From: Flavobacteriales bacterium
Lineage (GTDB): Bacteria > Bacteroidota > Bacteroidia > Flavobacteriales_C > GCA-002722245
NCBI GenBank assembly: GCA_023251095.1
Contig: JAHEZL010000011.1
Location: 1-64,000 of the forward strand
Length of the DNA stretch: 64,000 bases
Direction of reading: 5' to 3'
The position numbers and the translations under genes are program-made. Below the pieces are notes generated by a model. It made no database searches. It was not told where the DNA came from and worked only from the letters and a program-made list of their open reading frames with translations. Of the stretch, positions 31,794 to 40,718 are shown one piece after another (within the stretch, counting starts at the first letter, position 1; each line of letters opens with the position of its first letter).

Positions 31794-32597
31794 ATGTATC
31801 TTAAAAAGCCGATAGCCTCTTTCACCCTGATTCTTTTCATAGGATTGGCTATTAGTTCCTGCTTCAAACCCAGAACTGACGCGAATGACACAGACACTTC
31901 CCTCTCTCAGAATTACAGTTACGTTGAACAAAACAACAACGAAATCAACAATATTGTTATTGAAGTAATTGAAAAAGACACCATCACCTCTTTAAAAACC
32001 GATGATGTAAGCGATCTTTTATCTTCTTGTGTGCATTTCACAAAAACAAGTTCCCAAGACAGCATCACTGTTATTATTGATTTCGGAACAAGCAATTGCC
32101 TTTGCAACGACCAGAAATACAGAAGAGGAAAAATCGTTATACATGCGCTTGCCAACAAAACATGGGCAAAAGCAGAAACAGTTAATTTTTACGTAAACGA
32201 CAACTTGATTGAAGGAACAAGAATAATTGCCAGAAGTTCCATCCTGGAAGTAAGTGTTAAAGGTTCTACCAAAATCACTCTTGGCGACAGCGCTACCATT
32301 TCCGAAGATTTTAACAGAAGCATCACTCTTACCGAAGGTTACATGACTCCTAGTGTAAGCGACGACGTTTTTACCATTACAGGTTCCACTACCGGAGTTT
32401 CCAAAAAAGGTGCTTACACTACTGAAATTGTTTCTCCTTTAAAAAGAAAAAGAACCTGCGCCAATATCGTAAGCGGAGTATTGAAAATTAAGATTGAAAA
32501 CAAACTCGATCGTTTGATCGATTTCGGAAGCGGTGATTGCGATAATCTCGTGACTTTATCTATTGGAAAATATTCCAAGATAATTGCGCTGCAATAA
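31794..32597 (+). CDS. Lipoprotein of unknown function, paralogue 1
   Basis: This is a 267-residue predicted lipoprotein (lipobox AISSCF, ~23). It is related over its length to the next gene. Shared features are an acidic N-terminal part with SLKTDDVSDLL, then ITVIIDFGTSNCLCNDQKYRRGKIVI, DDVFTITGSTTG, PLKRKRTCANIVSGVLKI and the C-terminal IDFGSGDCDNL with IGK. The recurring DFGxGxC segments look like strand-turn units in a beta-rich fold. No known domain is recognised. The gene is probably a product of tandem duplication. Confidence 0.7.
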   Translation: MYLKKPIASFTLILFIGLAISSCFKPRTDANDTDTSLSQNYSYVEQNNNEINNIVIEVIEKDTITSLKTDDVSDLLSSCVHFTKTSSQDSITVIIDFGTSNCLCNDQKYRRGKIVIHALANKTWAKAETVNFYVNDNLIEGTRIIARSSILEVSVKGSTKITLGDSATISEDFNRSITLTEGYMTPSVSDDVFTITGSTTGVSKKGAYTTEIVSPLKRKRTCANIVSGVLKIKIENKLDRLIDFGSGDCDNLVTLSIGKYSKIIALQ

Positions 32598-32688: not shown

Positions 32689-33519
32689 ATGAAAAATCAA
32701 AAACTTATCAAAGGCGGGGTAATCCTATTAACCTCTTTCGGATTGTTACTTACTTCTTGCGCAAAAGAAGACGACAGCACAACAGCTGCTGAATCACATG
32801 CTGTTTCAGAACAAAGCAATGATGACATTGATGCTATTTCCGACGAAGCAGAATCATCAAACAAACTTTCTTCTTTCAAAACAGATGACGCAAGTGGAGT
32901 TTTAACAGATTCTGTTGTCATCACTAAAACAATGAAAGGTGACACAGGCACTGCAATTGTTGATTTTGGTACAGGAGGCATCACTTGTAAAGATGGTAAA
33001 GTAAGAAAAGGGAAAATTAAATTAGTTCGAATTGGCAATCCATTAAACCAAGGTTCAGTAAGAACAATTACAACTGATGGGTATTCTGTTGATGGGAATT
33101 CTATTGAAGCAACAAGAACAGTAACTTTCAATGGCTTACAAGCAACTAACGGTCACCCAAGTTGGAACATTTCAGCAAGCTATACCATTACTTTTGCTGA
33201 TGGATCAACTGCCTCAGGTACTACTACAAGATTAAGAGAATGGTCGGAAGGATCATCAACTTTAGACAACAGAACAGATGATGTATTTATTGTGTCAGGA
33301 ACTGCTTCCGGAACAAAAGCATCTGGTACTTCTTATGAAGTTGAAATTACTACTCCATTAAAAATAAAAGTTGCTTGCCACCAAATTGTAAGTGGTGTTA
33401 TTAAAATTACTCCTTCAGGAAAAGCAGCAAGAACAATCGACTTCGGAACAGGAGATTGTGATGGTACAGCAACAGCAACCATTGGAAAAGTGACTAAAAC
33501 AATTACTATTAAAAAATAA
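32689..33519 (+). CDS. Lipoprotein of unknown function, paralogue 2
   Basis: This is a 276-residue predicted lipoprotein (lipobox LLTSCAKED). Compared with paralogue 1 it keeps SFKTDDASGVL, TAIVDFGTGGITCKDGKVRKGKI, TDDVFIVSGTASGTK, PLKIKVACHQIVSGVIKI and IDFGTGDCDGTATATIGK. It is richer in Thr/Gly, and an extra segment (NGLQATNGHPSWNISASYTITFADGST) enlarges its middle. The 91-bp gap lacks a terminator, so the pair may be one transcript. Function is unknown. Confidence 0.7.
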   Translation: MKNQKLIKGGVILLTSFGLLLTSCAKEDDSTTAAESHAVSEQSNDDIDAISDEAESSNKLSSFKTDDASGVLTDSVVITKTMKGDTGTAIVDFGTGGITCKDGKVRKGKIKLVRIGNPLNQGSVRTITTDGYSVDGNSIEATRTVTFNGLQATNGHPSWNISASYTITFADGSTASGTTTRLREWSEGSSTLDNRTDDVFIVSGTASGTKASGTSYEVEITTPLKIKVACHQIVSGVIKITPSGKAARTIDFGTGDCDGTATATIGKVTKTITIKK

Positions 33520-34818: not shown

Positions 34819-37239
34819 TTACAACTTCACCTGCAACGTCACATAAAAACTTCTGGCATCGGAAGGAATGATTCCCGGACCCGGATAAGCCTCTGCTCTT
34901 CTGGTGAAATAACGATTGTCCAATAAATTATTGATACTTCCTTCCAGCGTTAATTTCCTGTAAGTGTACGACAAGCTGAAATCCATTACATTATAAGCCG
35001 GAATCAATCCGTTCACGGCATTGGCTGTAAAAGTTGAATTGGTAGCATCTGTAAATTGCTGAGCAGTGTAAGAGTATTGATAAGACGCACCAAACTTTTT
35101 GTATTTGTATTTCACTCCCGACTTAAACAATATCGGAGGAACCAGCTCCACTTGCTTGCCTTCAAACGCTTTTTCTTTACTTCCGTTGTAAACCGCATTC
35201 ATCCATGAAAAATTACTGAAAACAGAAATCTTCATGTCTTTATTTCCTTTGATGAGCCACTTGTAAAAATCCACTTCAATCAAGGTTTCAAAGCCATAGG
35301 TTTTAGAATCAGAAACATTGGTGCGCAATAAATAAACGGTAGAATTAACGGTATCGGTTTTCAGAACCGAACCGATACGGTTGTTGTAGCCTAAGTAAAA
35401 GAAGGTTGCATCGAAGTACAAAAAGTTTTTATACGTTCCTCTGTAGCCCAAATCATAGGTGAATCCGGTTTCATCTTTTAAATTAGGATCCACCTGAAAA
35501 TTAGGATTCACCACACGCATGTCATTGAAATTAATGGAACGATAATTTTGTGAAAAGTTAGAATACAACTCAGTAGCTTTTGATGGATGCCAGCTCAAAC
35601 CCACACCTGCCAAAACAAATGAACGCTGACTCACCCTGTTGTCCTGATACTGCTGTTTGAAAATTACCTGTCCGGCTAAATTTTTATTTTCAACATTGTA
35701 ATAGCCGCTTGAACGGGTGTCAATGTATTCAAAACGAAGGCCCGGTGTAATGCTTAAGTTTTTAGTAAGTTTAAAAATATTTTCACTGAACACAGAAATG
35801 TTTCTGCTAGGAAAAGTATAAGCTGAATATTCGGGATTGGCACCATTTAAAAATGAAAAATGCGGCTGATTCGTACTATCCGCTAAGCCTTGCTTTCTAT
35901 CGGTATAGCCTTGATAATATCTTCCACCGATTAAAAACACAGAAGGAATTTTCAGCAGTGAATAATAATGCAGCAAACGGATTTCACTTCCGAAGTTTTT
36001 GTATTGATCGCTCAGCAGATTTCTTTCTTTACCGTCATCGGCGCGATTGATCTGATTGAGTGTTCCCAAAGCATCACGCGACGCAACGAGTCCGAAAGTT
36101 CTCACATTCAATCTTGTTTTTTCACTGAACTCATAATCGAGAGTGAAAGCCATTAGGTTCCAGTTGACATTGAACCAGTTTCGCACACGAATAGATTGTT
36201 GCGGATCTTGTTTAAACATTCCATCTGTCAATCCTCCCGGCTGATGCGCCAGATATTGCATAAGGGTATATTCCAATCCGATTTTAAACTTAGCAGAGAA
36301 TTTATATTGTAGGGAAGCATAGCCCGAATTCACATAAAAATCGGCGTTAGGTCTCCAGCCATTTCCCTGCTTTCTTTGTGCGTAAGCATAGTAAGTCAAT
36401 TTCCCAACGGTACCGCCAATGCTGTTGAATGAATTGATGAAGCCCCATGAACCCATGGTTTGACGGGTGGTTAACTCGAACTTTTTGTTTTCCGGACCTT
36501 TCTTCAGATTAAAATTAAGGAAGCCGCCAAACTGCGTTCCGTATTGTAAAGATGCGGCGCCACGCACAATTTCAATTTTGTCGATGGCCTCTGAAGGCGG
36601 ACTGTAATAGCTTTCGGGATAACCCAAAGCATCGGCACTGATGTCATAACCATTCTGGCGCGTATTGAAATTTGAAACACGATTGGGATTTAAACCTCTT
36701 CCGCCAATGCTCAGCTGAATACCCGCGCCATCACTTTCCCAGATATTTAATCCGCTGATTTTGCCGTAAATTTCACGGGCATTGTTAGTAGATTTATTGC
36801 CCGGCGTGGCATTCACATCAATCACCTCCGATTTTTTTCCTTCGTAAATAGAAGTTCCTTCTACCGAATTCAATTTTCCTACATTAAAGTTTTTTGATTT
36901 TTCAATAACGATGGGCGCAGTTTTAACAATGGATTTTGAAAATTTAAAATTCAGCCAAATGTCATTATTACTCACTGTTACTTTTGCATTTTGCACTTCT
37001 CTTTCCTCATAAAAAAGTGCCACAGTGTAATTTCCAGCAGGAATATTTTCAAAATAAAATTCACCTTTTTTATCAGTGAACACAAAAAGATTCAACTCTT
37101 CAACAACAACACGAACATGCTCTACATGGGTTGAATCTTCAGCAGAAATCACCTTTCCCGAAATAGAAAAAGAAAATGCAGAAAGAGGTAACAAAAGTAA
37201 AACTGCAAGACGGATACTATGAAGCAAAAACTTATTCAT
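34819..37239 (-). CDS. TonB-dependent outer-membrane receptor, probably for a metal complex
   Basis: This is an 806-residue TonB-dependent receptor. A signal peptide is followed by a CarboxypepD-like domain (SISGKVISAEDSTHVEHVRV... GEFYFENIPAGNYTVALF, ~25-95). The plug has YGKISGLNIWESDGAGIQLSIGGRG and IEIVRGAASLQYGTQFGG, and a ~22-strand barrel ends in aromatic-rich RSFYVTLQVKL. The plug and barrel are of the FecA/siderophore kind and not SusC. The ATG at 37239 shares one base with the stop of the imelysin-like gene (TGATG), implying translational coupling. A metal-chelate ligand is inferred from these neighbours. Confidence 0.88.
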   Translation of the reverse strand: MNKFLLHSIRLAVLLLLPLSAFSFSISGKVISAEDSTHVEHVRVVVEELNLFVFTDKKGEFYFENIPAGNYTVALFYEEREVQNAKVTVSNNDIWLNFKFSKSIVKTAPIVIEKSKNFNVGKLNSVEGTSIYEGKKSEVIDVNATPGNKSTNNAREIYGKISGLNIWESDGAGIQLSIGGRGLNPNRVSNFNTRQNGYDISADALGYPESYYSPPSEAIDKIEIVRGAASLQYGTQFGGFLNFNLKKGPENKKFELTTRQTMGSWGFINSFNSIGGTVGKLTYYAYAQRKQGNGWRPNADFYVNSGYASLQYKFSAKFKIGLEYTLMQYLAHQPGGLTDGMFKQDPQQSIRVRNWFNVNWNLMAFTLDYEFSEKTRLNVRTFGLVASRDALGTLNQINRADDGKERNLLSDQYKNFGSEIRLLHYYSLLKIPSVFLIGGRYYQGYTDRKQGLADSTNQPHFSFLNGANPEYSAYTFPSRNISVFSENIFKLTKNLSITPGLRFEYIDTRSSGYYNVENKNLAGQVIFKQQYQDNRVSQRSFVLAGVGLSWHPSKATELYSNFSQNYRSINFNDMRVVNPNFQVDPNLKDETGFTYDLGYRGTYKNFLYFDATFFYLGYNNRIGSVLKTDTVNSTVYLLRTNVSDSKTYGFETLIEVDFYKWLIKGNKDMKISVFSNFSWMNAVYNGSKEKAFEGKQVELVPPILFKSGVKYKYKKFGASYQYSYTAQQFTDATNSTFTANAVNGLIPAYNVMDFSLSYTYRKLTLEGSINNLLDNRYFTRRAEAYPGPGIIPSDARSFYVTLQVKL

Positions 37240-38336
37240 CAATCGCCATCATTGTCCTGATAAGAAATTAGCACTCCCAGTTTGGAAGGCATATCCACTT
37301 TCAAAGGAAGAACTACTTTTTGCAACTTTGAATAAACAGCTTCTACTGAAGACTGATTATTAATGATAGTTTGCGACAAGGCACCATTAAGTGCCGAACA
37401 GGCCAACAATGCATCAGCCAATTTACTTTGCATATCCTGATCAATGGCAACACCATCAAAAGCAACAAGATGATCATCCAAACCCAAACCGTTCACTGAG
37501 CCATATTTGCCTAAATACAAATTTTGAAAAGCTGTAACACTTGCAACAAGCATATCCACTGAATACCCACTATAATACGCTTCTACTTGTTTAGGCAAAG
37601 GAATACCTAAAGATTTTACTCCTACTGGAATACCTATTTTACCATCCCTAACATAACGCTCAAAATATTTATTCATGGCATTGATCAGCATACTTAAAGA
37701 CCCTCCAACACTGTAACTTGTATTTGCCACAAAATTTGGATAATACGAATTCCAGCTACTTACCACTTCATCTACCTTGCCTTTAATAGCCAATGTTAAT
37801 GCAAGTAAATAATTTTTGCGATTTGTGTTATTTATTCCCGACGAGTATAAAACCAACAACGCCGAATCACTTACGTTTTCTCCGAACAACAAATAATCTA
37901 TGGCAGGAAAACCCTTTGTGTCGGAATTAATTAATTGATCCAAGTTAAAATTACCTGCACTAATATTGCTTTCTATTTTAGAAGTGTTAACCGGATAAAC
38001 ATTTAAATTAGCTCGCAGCGCAAGCCCTTCTGCCGGACCAAATTCAAAAACATCGCATTTCTGCCATGAAATATATGCTGCCCTATACTTTGCTCTAACT
38101 TCAACAAGATTTTCTTGATTTATATTTGCAATAAAACTATCAACGGAAACACTCAATGCATTCACGTTAACTTGCAATTCGTTATAGGAAGGCAAAATGA
38201 TGTTCTTCCCTACATTTTCAAGCATTCCCTTTAAATCAAAATTCTTTTCTTCAACTTTTGACTTTGGGACACAGGCATAAAGAAATAGAGAAAATCCACA
38301 TACCGATGCTATAAATAGTTTCAAATGCTTCATCAT
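37239..38336 (-). CDS. Imelysin-like (peptidase M75 family) lipoprotein
   Basis: This is a 365-residue predicted lipoprotein (lipobox SLFLYACV). The helical domain carries YRAAYISWQKCDVFEFGPAEG and TKGFPAIDYLLFGE, the pattern of imelysin-like (IrpA/PF09375) proteins that take part in iron uptake in Bacteroidota. The GxHxxE motif of classical imelysins is replaced by GFPAIDY, as in IrpA-like members. Its ATG overlaps the DUF4856 stop by one base (TAATG) and its own stop overlaps the receptor ATG. It sits in the outer part of the periplasm, presumably feeding or serving the receptor. Confidence 0.85.
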   Translation of the reverse strand: MMKHLKLFIASVCGFSLFLYACVPKSKVEEKNFDLKGMLENVGKNIILPSYNELQVNVNALSVSVDSFIANINQENLVEVRAKYRAAYISWQKCDVFEFGPAEGLALRANLNVYPVNTSKIESNISAGNFNLDQLINSDTKGFPAIDYLLFGENVSDSALLVLYSSGINNTNRKNYLLALTLAIKGKVDEVVSSWNSYYPNFVANTSYSVGGSLSMLINAMNKYFERYVRDGKIGIPVGVKSLGIPLPKQVEAYYSGYSVDMLVASVTAFQNLYLGKYGSVNGLGLDDHLVAFDGVAIDQDMQSKLADALLACSALNGALSQTIINNQSSVEAVYSKLQKVVLPLKVDMPSKLGVLISYQDNDGD

Positions 38337-39487
38337 TACAAAGTTGCTTTAATAGATTCAAAGCCATAACGCGCAGCTAAAAAATCTTTGATATCGTTTA
38401 ACCCTTGGTTAGTAACATTCCACAGATTTTCGCCCAATTTATTTTTGATCAAATCCTCCACTTCTATCAAAGTCACTTTTCGTTTTGATGGGATATTGTA
38501 TTGCAAAGCTTTTATAAAACCTAGCATTTCTGACAATTCGTGCAATCTATTTCCTTGATTAGTTTCAATTAAAACTTCATTGGCATAATGAATTACACAG
38601 GCTGCAGTGAGTTTTTCCAACTCTAAATAAAGTATGTCGCGTTGTTCATTTTTGGTTTTGTTGTCTTTATTAGTAATCGCAGCTCTCATTTTTTTGAAAG
38701 CATTCATAATTTTATCATTGCTTCCTAATGAGGCATCTAACTCGTTGCTATAACTTGCCCAGTAACGAAGAGTTCCTGTTCCGGTGTAATTGGATTTAAA
38801 ATCGGCAGGTGCACCAAAATAACCAAAAGCCTCATCTGCATGATGTTCTAACAAAGTATAATTTTTACCGCTAATGATAGCAGAATTATCCACAGCATCA
38901 TCCAATTCATCCGCCAAGTAAGAATTATATAATTGATATAATATCACTGCACCCATCAGCCCCTTTTGATTCAACTGGGTAAACTCAACACCATTCTCGT
39001 CCACCAAAATTGTTGCGTTATTGCTCCTTTTAATTAAACCAGCTTTTCCACTGGAAGCTAAAGCACCAACAGCCCCACTATCGCTAGCTAGGGCAGCCTT
39101 ATCATAAAGAGATTCAAAAATTGATTGATCTAAAAAGAAAGTGTTTTCCTTCAATTGATGCTCAGAGGTGAAGGAGAAATTTCCGGCGCCATTTCCATCC
39201 GTATTGGCATACATATCCTTCAGAACTTGCGTGCTCAGTGCTTGTCCGGCATCACCAGTTTTCATTTTAGTATTTAATTCTACCAATTGATTAATTAAGT
39301 CGCTTTGTTCCTCTAAATTAACAGAAGAAGAATCAGATCTTAGAAAAGAATAAGTCGCAGGAACTTCATATGAATCGTCGTCTGCAGGAATCTTAGGATC
39401 TTTTTTACAAGAGGTGAAAAGTAAAGCTGCCGATAAAATTCCTGTTGCTGATAAACCCAGCCATTTTGTTGTTGTAAATTGACGCAT
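38336..39487 (-). CDS. DUF4856 lipoprotein
   Basis: This is a 383-residue predicted lipoprotein (lipobox LLFTSCKK). YEVPATYSFLRSDSSSVNLEEQSDLINQL, NGVEFTQLNQKGLMGAVILYQ and LLEHHADEAFGYFGAP are typical of DUF4856, a Bacteroidota family regularly found with imelysin-like proteins and TonB receptors. The paired histidines in LLEHHADEAFGYF could bind metal. It is translationally coupled to the imelysin gene and starts 48 nt after the small Cys-rich peptide gene. Confidence 0.85.
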   Translation of the reverse strand: MRQFTTTKWLGLSATGILSAALLFTSCKKDPKIPADDDSYEVPATYSFLRSDSSSVNLEEQSDLINQLVELNTKMKTGDAGQALSTQVLKDMYANTDGNGAGNFSFTSEHQLKENTFFLDQSIFESLYDKAALASDSGAVGALASSGKAGLIKRSNNATILVDENGVEFTQLNQKGLMGAVILYQLYNSYLADELDDAVDNSAIISGKNYTLLEHHADEAFGYFGAPADFKSNYTGTGTLRYWASYSNELDASLGSNDKIMNAFKKMRAAITNKDNKTKNEQRDILYLELEKLTAACVIHYANEVLIETNQGNRLHELSEMLGFIKALQYNIPSKRKVTLIEVEDLIKNKLGENLWNVTNQGLNDIKDFLAARYGFESIKATL

Positions 39488-39535
39488 TGTTTTTTAATTT
39501 TAAGGTTCGATTAAATAGTGATGGGAAAGTCTTGA

Positions 39536-39670
39536 TTAGTGTTTCGGACACTTTTTACAGGCTTTCCCTTTTTTGTACTTTTTACAGCAATCTTTCTTTT
39601 TGGAATCACAGGCCTGCATAATCTGAAGGAGGATGCAAGATGGTCCGTTTTGTTTTTCCGTAAAAGTCAT
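39536..39670 (-). CDS. 44-residue Cys/Lys-rich peptide, first gene of the metal-uptake operon
   Basis: This is a small peptide with six cysteines (12, 21, 28, 29, 38, 41) and a C-terminal His: the second half reads ACDSKKKDCCKKYKKGKA, then CKKCPKH. There is no signal peptide. The ATG at 39670 was chosen because the promoter at 39694-39724 lies just upstream and would exclude the longer frame starting at 39724. It is followed by DUF4856, imelysin-like and TonB receptor genes on the same strand. A metal-binding or sensing role is inferred from composition and context. It could instead be a regulatory leader peptide. I know no family for it. Confidence 0.6.
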   Translation of the reverse strand: MTFTEKQNGPSCILLQIMQACDSKKKDCCKKYKKGKACKKCPKH

Positions 39671-39693
39671 AACACTATATTTTAAGTACGACA

Positions 39694-39724
39694 CAAATGT
39701 ATCTCCGAAACGTTGGGGGTACAA
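39694..39724 (-). promoter_or_regulatory. Consensus promoter of the Cys-rich peptide/DUF4856/imelysin/TonB operon
   Basis: On the minus strand TTG (39724-39722), 20 nt, then TACATTTG (39701-39694). Both elements match the Bacteroidota consensus at correct spacing. The predicted start is about 15-20 nt before the peptide ATG. No Fur-like 19-bp palindrome was recognised here. Confidence 0.7.
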
Positions 39725-39778
39725 TACCTAAAAAGTGGTATAATGAGATGAGGGGTTCTTTTGTTGAAGAAATCTAAA

Positions 39779-39791: not shown

Positions 39792-40718
39792 ATGGAAAAG
39801 ATCCTGAAACCCATACAACATGCCCTCCTTTATTTTTCGCAACCCGATGAGCGGATTTATTACCCTTACCTCATCAGCAGCGCCATTATTGCGGCACTTT
39901 TGTTTTTAACTTATAACAAAAGCTTTAAAGGTTTGCTAACCTATGTTTTTCCATATAAGAGGCTGATTCATATTTCATCGCTGAATGATATTTTGCTTTT
40001 GATCATTAATCACGTCATCAACGTGGTATTCTTCCTTCCTTTTTTAATCAATTCCATTTTACTGGCTTACCTTATACAGCAATGGATGAATGATTGGTTT
40101 GGGGAATCCGGCATACAAATTTCGGATACGGAAGCGATAGTATATTATGCTGTAGCTTATTTCATCATCAGCGATTTCAGCAGATATGTGCTGCACTTTC
40201 TGTTGCACAAAATTTCTTTTTTGTGGGAATTTCATAAAGTGCATCATTCGGCGGAAGTACTTACTCCTATTACCTTATACAGAGTTCATCCGGTGGAGAG
40301 CATGTTGTTTCAATTGCGGTCGGTATTTATTGGCGGATTGGTTTCGGGCGTATTTTTGTGGATTTATCCTTATTCCATCACACCTTATGTAGTTTGGGGA
40401 GTTCATGTGGGCACTTTTGTTTTTAATTTGCTGGGCGCAAACCTTCGCCATTCACATGTTTGGTTGTCGTTTGGAAAATATGTGGAAAGAATTTTCATCA
40501 GTCCGGCACAACACATCATTCACCACAGCAACGATCCCAAACACTTCAATAAAAACATGGGATCGGAACTGGCCATATGGGACTGGCTTTTCAAAACGCT
40601 TTACATCACCAAAGAAAAAGAAGACATCAAATTCGGTGTGGAAGAAAGTAAAGAACACAGGAGTTTGGTGAAAATTATTTTTCAGCCTTTTGGAAAAGTA
40701 TTTAGAAGAAAAAAATAA
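39792..40718 (+). CDS. Fatty acid hydroxylase/sterol desaturase family membrane enzyme
   Basis: This is a 308-residue di-iron membrane enzyme of the fatty acid hydroxylase superfamily. The His motifs are HFLLH, HKVHHS, the HSH of LRHSHVW, and HIIHH. Four or more hydrophobic segments flank them (for example YPYLISSAIIAALLFL and VINVVFFLPFLINSILLAYL). Such enzymes hydroxylate or desaturate lipid chains; in Bacteroidota several relatives are linked to carotenoid or hydroxylated-lipid synthesis, but the substrate cannot be told. It converges on the next gene with only 5 bp between stop codons and no terminator. Confidence 0.85.
   Translation: MEKILKPIQHALLYFSQPDERIYYPYLISSAIIAALLFLTYNKSFKGLLTYVFPYKRLIHISSLNDILLLIINHVINVVFFLPFLINSILLAYLIQQWMNDWFGESGIQISDTEAIVYYAVAYFIISDFSRYVLHFLLHKISFLWEFHKVHHSAEVLTPITLYRVHPVESMLFQLRSVFIGGLVSGVFLWIYPYSITPYVVWGVHVGTFVFNLLGANLRHSHVWLSFGKYVERIFISPAQHIIHHSNDPKHFNKNMGSELAIWDWLFKTLYITKEKEDIKFGVEESKEHRSLVKIIFQPFGKVFRRKK

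Follow-up and report, generated by a model that had tools for sequence, protein, structure and literature searches.

The bfd gene is found near the bacterioferritin gene and is induced at low iron, and the Bfd protein carries its cysteines in the pattern C-x-C...C-x2-C. Small, basic, Fur-regulated proteins are also known from Bacillus subtilis (FbpA, FbpB, and FbpC), which are not known to have a Cys core, and we know of no iron-release partner for the common heme-free ferritins. According to PMC7760384, Bfd is a [2Fe-2S] protein that releases the iron of bacterioferritin and moves electrons into the ferritin shell, and without it the iron stays locked in. PMC9478572 describes a tiny Cys-rich iron-uptake protein of Bizionia that is lowered in a regulator mutant along with an imelysin-like gene. 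In Table 4 of PMC5609570 the Riemerella genes for a TonB protein, a gamma-carboxylase-like protein, an imelysin, and a hypothetical protein are entered as Fur-regulated and go up under iron limitation. Described here is a 44-residue peptide encoded on contig JAHEZL010000011.1 of a Flavobacteriales bacterium (positions 1 to 64,000; this whole stretch of 64,000 nucleotides is referred to as the window), where its gene precedes those of a DUF4856 protein, an imelysin-like protein, and a TonB-dependent receptor.

The peptide is like Bfd in being small, in having four conserved Cys residues, and, in relatives, in being encoded near an iron-storage protein. It differs in the arrangement of its Cys residues (CC-x8/9-C-x2-C), in the partner ferritins, which are of the FtnA type, and in the absence of the Bfd Pfam domain, a test of family membership having placed it outside that family. 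Compared with the tiny Bizionia protein, the window peptide has no Pfam match, carries its core in a Lys-rich tail, and was not seen beside feoB. The Fbp proteins are alike in size, charge, and iron regulation. The three genes behind the peptide were correctly recognized in a first-pass annotation of the window as a known type of Bacteroidota uptake locus; they correspond to the DUF4856-imelysin-HTTM-TonB iron locus minus HTTM.

The peptide is proposed to be an accessory protein of ferritin iron traffic that is controlled by iron and probably binds a metal, Bfd-like but unrelated to Bfd, a reading for which the arguments on the two sides are about evenly balanced. Iron release from bacterioferritin is understood through Bfd, and the peptide family is a direct candidate for the same task in heme-free ferritins. 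The locus also points to an iron-linked operator of Bacteroidota, TACC-N8-GGTA, which precedes suf, feo, imelysin, and DUF4856 genes.

A small Cys-rich protein family

The genomes sampled were those of Bacteroidota and Gammaproteobacteria. To judge from its conservation, the 44-codon open reading frame (ORF) is a real gene: a chance frame is ruled out because it is conserved in the genomes G007 and G006 (84% and 63% peptide identity to the window, respectively), because the ratio of nonsynonymous to synonymous substitution rates (dN/dS) between the window and G007, the nearest relative, is 0.09, which indicates purifying selection, and because a single-sequence search gave matches at E<=0.1 in 47 of 198 Bacteroidia genomes. 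Eight of the 51 match rows of that search contain stop codons and are probably due to chance. A finite, non-zero dN/dS was obtained for 6 of 15 pairs and ranged from 0.03 to 0.12, the synonymous sites being saturated or amino-acid changes being absent in the other nine; the Pedobacter pair L045/L046 shows 13 synonymous changes and no amino-acid change.

The peptide (MTFTEKQNGPSCILLQIMQACDSKKKDCCKKYKKGKACKKCPKH; isoelectric point (pI) 9.5) contains the six Cys residues and terminal His of the first-pass annotation, and 12 Lys residues instead of the 16 given there. Conservation lies mainly in the C-terminal half, where an alignment of 32 Bacteroidota and gammaproteobacterial cores shows the four Cys residues of CC-x8/9-C-x2-C to be invariant and nearly always followed by Pro. 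Family members are about 25 to 60 residues long and basic, with a median pI of 9.7 (n=59). Of 395 Bacteroidota genomes searched with a 26-row profile, 27 gave a match at E<=0.01, the five matches outside the class being weak. A regular expression for the peptide missed L087, L112, and L125 and so kept them out of the counts on neighbours, -7 spacing, and promoters given below; the first two do hold a member and the third is unlike one.

The window peptide and four relatives had no match in Pfam up to an E value of 10, the Bfd domain included, and the best NCBIfam match (E 0.26) was not significant. Searches of PDB with the peptide sequence and with the core profile gave no match, and searches of open-licence papers turned up neither a description of the family nor the string CCKKYKK. 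On the sequence evidence, this is an uncatalogued small-protein family with a C-terminal CC-x8/9-C-x2-C-P core. Two other identities were rejected: ribosomal protein bL38, on the grounds that the PDB search was without a match, and a mobile or phage gene, on the grounds that a 24-residue Halochromatium core query matched no plasmid and the window peptide matched no phage.

Ferritin linkage and iron-linked promoters

A scan of named genomes returned two Halochromatium matches in which the core lies right behind a ferritin gene. Of 321 genomes sampled from the class that includes Halochromatium, five gave a match at E<=0.01; the matches in G567 (Halochromatium) and G735 are convincing, with the peptide behind ferritin in both, and the remaining three are weak. 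Across the order to which Halochromatium belongs (purple sulfur bacteria), the family was present at E<=0.001 in 51 of 195 genomes, and in 43 of these 51 (26/30 plus 17/21) an FtnA-like ferritin gene is located directly upstream on the same strand; G735 is a further gammaproteobacterium outside this count. With both genes placed, the peptide start lies -4 to 157 nucleotides past the stop codon of ferritin; at L335 ferritin is present and the peptide was not placed. An iron-storage neighbour is absent in the window and was found in two genomes of Bacteroidota (G114 and G895, of one genus), where ferritin is followed by a Fur-box-like palindrome and then by the peptide, in an arrangement resembling that of bfd and bacterioferritin; in G114 a -7 box follows the palindrome. 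These are two of the four matching genomes among the 46 of their family. No E. coli Fur was found near Bacteroidota peptides at the loci scanned for Fur or ferritin.

Eight gammaproteobacterial copies are without adjacent ferritin (L270, L273, L275, L291, L322, L323, L336, and L337), and L270 and L291 lie beside an ORF that looked RecN-like by eye. L036 and L039 (Halochromatium), L280, L282, L285, and L287 carry the four-Cys core as an in-frame fusion with the ORF behind it, whose protein has a signal-like segment; at L272, L274, L276, and L284 the next gene is a separate ORF that resembles this one in its start region.

Counts on neighbours, -7 spacing, and promoters were made without L035, L037, and L038, which come from the same genomes as other rows, and without the Halochromatium loci L036 and L039; the promoter counts also omit L113, which has too little upstream DNA, and use 28 of 30 DUF4856 loci (L256 and L261, with misplaced start codons, left out). 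An exact TACC-N8-GGTA was found in 13 of 58 peptide promoters (shuffles 0.02) versus 0 of 488 other upstream regions of the same loci, a figure that is partly circular in that the motif was first noticed in peptide promoters, the suf, feo, and DUF4856 results being independent. Among DUF4856 promoters the exact motif was present in 18 of 28 (shuffle mean 0.04). The longer form ATACC-N8-GGTATTG occurs exactly twice in the own genome, in the peptide promoter and, outside the window, at G000:C38:122390-122409 (L129), ahead of the gene for a response regulator of the NarL type (Pfam domains Response_reg and GerE). With one mismatch or fewer, 35 sites were found versus 9 for the reversed control; most of the 19 sites inspected fall within coding regions, and those placed as in a promoter include the sites of sufA (C9:10213) and feoAB (C16:110570), with one mismatch each.

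Across 12 peptide-bearing genomes, the pattern TACC-N3-TTTW-N-GGTA showed no excess (52 sites versus 63 for the reversed control, inspection being confined to sites of the forward pattern), and its signal lies in the identity of the genes, not in the number of sites. In 10 of the 12 genomes the pattern stands upstream of a gene resembling sufA (one assigned by Pfam, the others via near-identical sequences). Further sites lie before feoB in G028 and G084, imelysin in G006 and G007, and DUF4856 in G006 and G038, and also before TonB receptors and an HmuY-domain protein. These regulon tests, which rest on pattern matches, indicate that TACC-N8-GGTA is an iron-linked operator common to peptide, suf, feo, imelysin, and DUF4856 genes. 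The window promoter falls within this predicted regulon, its -33 element being overlaid by ATACCACTTTTTAGGTATTG, a site of the TACC-N8-GGTA type. The link to metal put forward in the first-pass annotation is, for iron, strongly supported by the operator and by the ferritin linkage in relatives. Bizionia MliR is an iron-responsive MerR-like activator, as described in PMC9478572, and by regulon content it may be considered one candidate for the factor that acts at the TACC operator.

For Riemerella, PMC5609570 gives the Fur box ATTTAGAATTATTCTAAAT, with support from an electrophoretic mobility shift assay (EMSA). Its core, TTTAGA-N5-TCTAAA, was found within one mismatch in 21 of 28 DUF4856 promoters (shuffle mean 0.10). 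In these promoters (L240-L269) TACC-N8-GGTA often stands together with the Fur box, the TACC site being upstream, an arrangement that suggests a DUF4856 promoter served by two iron-linked regulators. Among peptide promoters, a Fur box within two mismatches was found in 20 of 58 (shuffles 1.58) versus 10 of 488 other upstream regions; two of the 20, at -107/-108 in the window and L076, are probably chance, the window having only a two-mismatch match at -108. Pedobacter strains such as P. rhizosphaerae (L041) are of the Fur-box type. Both operators are present in the single peptide promoter of G1153 (L316). Class A palindromes (class B being the operator type of the window promoter) were searched genome-wide in 10 genomes and yielded 14 distinct sites, with reversed-pattern controls equally frequent. 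One site lies before a sufA-like gene, two or three before genes that resemble TonB receptors (one of these being divergent to a regulator of the AraC type), and one before a gene like that of a ferredoxin reductase; the others showed no iron link. This list alone is no proof of an iron box, and more weight falls on the EMSA from the literature and on the promoters of DUF4856 genes. Judged by its promoters, the peptide gene of Bacteroidia appears to behave as an iron-starvation gene.

Proposed role and alternatives

Iron regulation and ferritin adjacency, observed in separate lineages, agree in pointing to a part in iron traffic for this small, basic protein with its four Cys residues. In such a role the four Cys residues would hold a metal or a small iron-sulfur (Fe-S) cluster, the Lys-rich surface would dock on an acidic partner, for instance ferritin, and the protein would carry electrons or iron from ferritin to the iron pool of the cytosol or the other way, so that iron could be supplied for Fe-S assembly once uptake fails. 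The first-pass suggestion of a metallochaperone is likely to hold in the sense of a metallochaperone or metal-binding protein. A narrower version, put forward tentatively, is that the family may be a minimal redox/iron shuttle for FtnA-type ferritins, an unrelated counterpart of Bfd with smallest forms of about 25 residues, in Bacteroidota and purple sulfur bacteria; if true, this would explain how iron is retrieved from ferritin in bacteria that have no Bfd partner.

Several observations weigh against a role in ferritin iron traffic. Metal binding and ferritin contact are steps that we infer, and the AlphaFold model of the peptide (mean predicted local distance difference test score 57.7) is too poor for a fold search. 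In 8 of the 51 genomes of the Halochromatium order there is no adjacent ferritin, and the Bacteroidota ferritin link comes from one lineage, the two genomes of one genus, with ferritin in only 1 of 61 scanned Bacteroidota loci (G114; flanks of up to about 7 kb, some ended by the contig). Neither operator was found, even at lax thresholds, in 19 of 58 Bacteroidota peptide promoters. No E. coli-type Fur box was found before 23 Chromatiales ferritins (23 of 43 were scored, the start being unlocated in 20), the best matches equalling those of shuffles; low-iron induction therefore has no support there, and a storage role fits equally.

This last result bears on the main rival to the Bfd-like role, in which the protein is an iron or Fe-S chaperone for loading and not a redox partner, its Cys residues binding Fe(II) or Fe-S intermediates and the iron being handed to ferritin or Suf. 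The ferritin tandem in Chromatiales, where a low-iron signal was not detectable, and the operator common with suf are in keeping with loading, whereas the low-iron type of regulation in the Bacteroidota genus g78, where a Fur-box-like palindrome separates the two genes, fits release better, and loading is considered unlikely. A small basic zinc- or RNA-binding protein of an iron-sparing response, Fbp-like, with the Cys residues as a zinc knuckle and the Lys residues on RNA, would explain the basic pI, the four Cys, and the iron operators, but ferritin linkage in a second phylum (43 of 51 genomes) would be unexpected for an RNA chaperone, and we regard it as decidedly improbable. The least credible explanation is the leader peptide or attenuator of the first-pass annotation, in which Cys codons would sense cysteine or metal and set the expression of the downstream operon. 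The peptide is indeed the first reading frame of the window transcript, 48 nucleotides ahead of DUF4856, and in 23 of 59 relatives the ATG lies 3-8 nucleotides past the -7 box, which by the start-site rule suggests near-leaderless mRNAs. Against this, the gene stands mostly alone elsewhere, with a next gene that is unrelated and often convergent, amino acids are conserved and not Cys codons alone, the gap is without a hairpin, and the peptide is missing from all 30 other DUF4856 loci examined. With no constant downstream target and no hairpin, attenuation was rejected.

Operon and neighbourhood of the window gene

The features of the locus are listed below.

Coordinates of the peptide gene, its promoter, and adjacent genes in the window
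Feature	Position	Strand	Evidence or remark
44-residue Cys/Lys-rich protein (MTFTEKQ...CCKKYKKGKACKKCPKH)	39536..39670, stop included	minus	ORF of 44 codons (ATG 39670, stop 39536); core CC-x8-C-x2-C-P; purifying selection
Operator ATACC-N8-GGTATTG (class B)	39722..39741	minus	TTG 39722-39724 within operator, predicted -33 element
-7 element TACATTTG	39694..39701	minus	20-nucleotide spacer from -33 TTG; from sequence
Peptide-DUF4856 gap, 48 nucleotides	39488..39535	minus	No hairpin, folding energy 0.0; fits co-transcription
DUF4856 lipoprotein	38336..39487	minus	PF16148, E 2.3e-42
Imelysin-like lipoprotein	37239..38336	minus	PF09375, E 8.9e-38
TonB-dependent receptor	34819..37239	minus	PF00593, E 6.8e-35; PF07715; ATG within TGATG overlap
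Fatty acid hydroxylase, divergent	39792..40718	plus	PF04116; marker of orthologous G006 locus (L228), peptide-free

The TTG-N20-box promoter, the three downstream genes, and the one-base TAATG and TGATG overlaps that join them were all found as first annotated. The -7 box ends 23 nucleotides ahead of the peptide ATG, the same promoter layout (-33 TTG and -7 box) is present at L076 and L077, and no second -7 box was seen when the 48-nucleotide gap was read by eye. The peptide is probably co-transcribed with the imelysin operon in the window because both are in one regulon. Its place as first gene of the DUF4856 operon is plausible here, given the short gap without a hairpin, and was refuted as a general rule: DUF4856 was found in 52 of 237 genomes, and none of the 30 other loci examined had the peptide within about 1.5 kb on each side.

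A DUF4856 gene downstream on the same strand was found only in the window and G007 (L076) among 59 Bacteroidota loci. At L044 a DUF4856-imelysin-HTTM-TonB locus is divergent from the peptide, 187 nucleotides away, and at L081 imelysin-HTTM-TonB genes are upstream of it (HTTM being presumed at both loci). Other neighbours, named by eye from their sequences and not by Pfam, vary by lineage and are often convergent (DAHP synthase, glycine dehydrogenase/DnaJ, M42 peptidase, and the acpP region). In G006, of the same genus, the orthologous DUF4856 operon has the same divergent hydroxylase, the operator, and the -7 box, and no peptide was found there; the G006 peptide is encoded elsewhere, close to the end of a contig, and has a separate copy of the operator. 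Judging from these gene orders, the peptide is usually a stand-alone gene in Bacteroidia, and its placement before a DUF4856 operon is a local arrangement.

Elsewhere in the window, the ORFs 31794-32597 and 32689-33519 are adjacent, similar in length, and lipoprotein-like at their starts; they lie beside a thioredoxin-reductase-like gene and have no significant Pfam match. Relatives of ORF 32689-33519 occur near the G006 peptide (L077).

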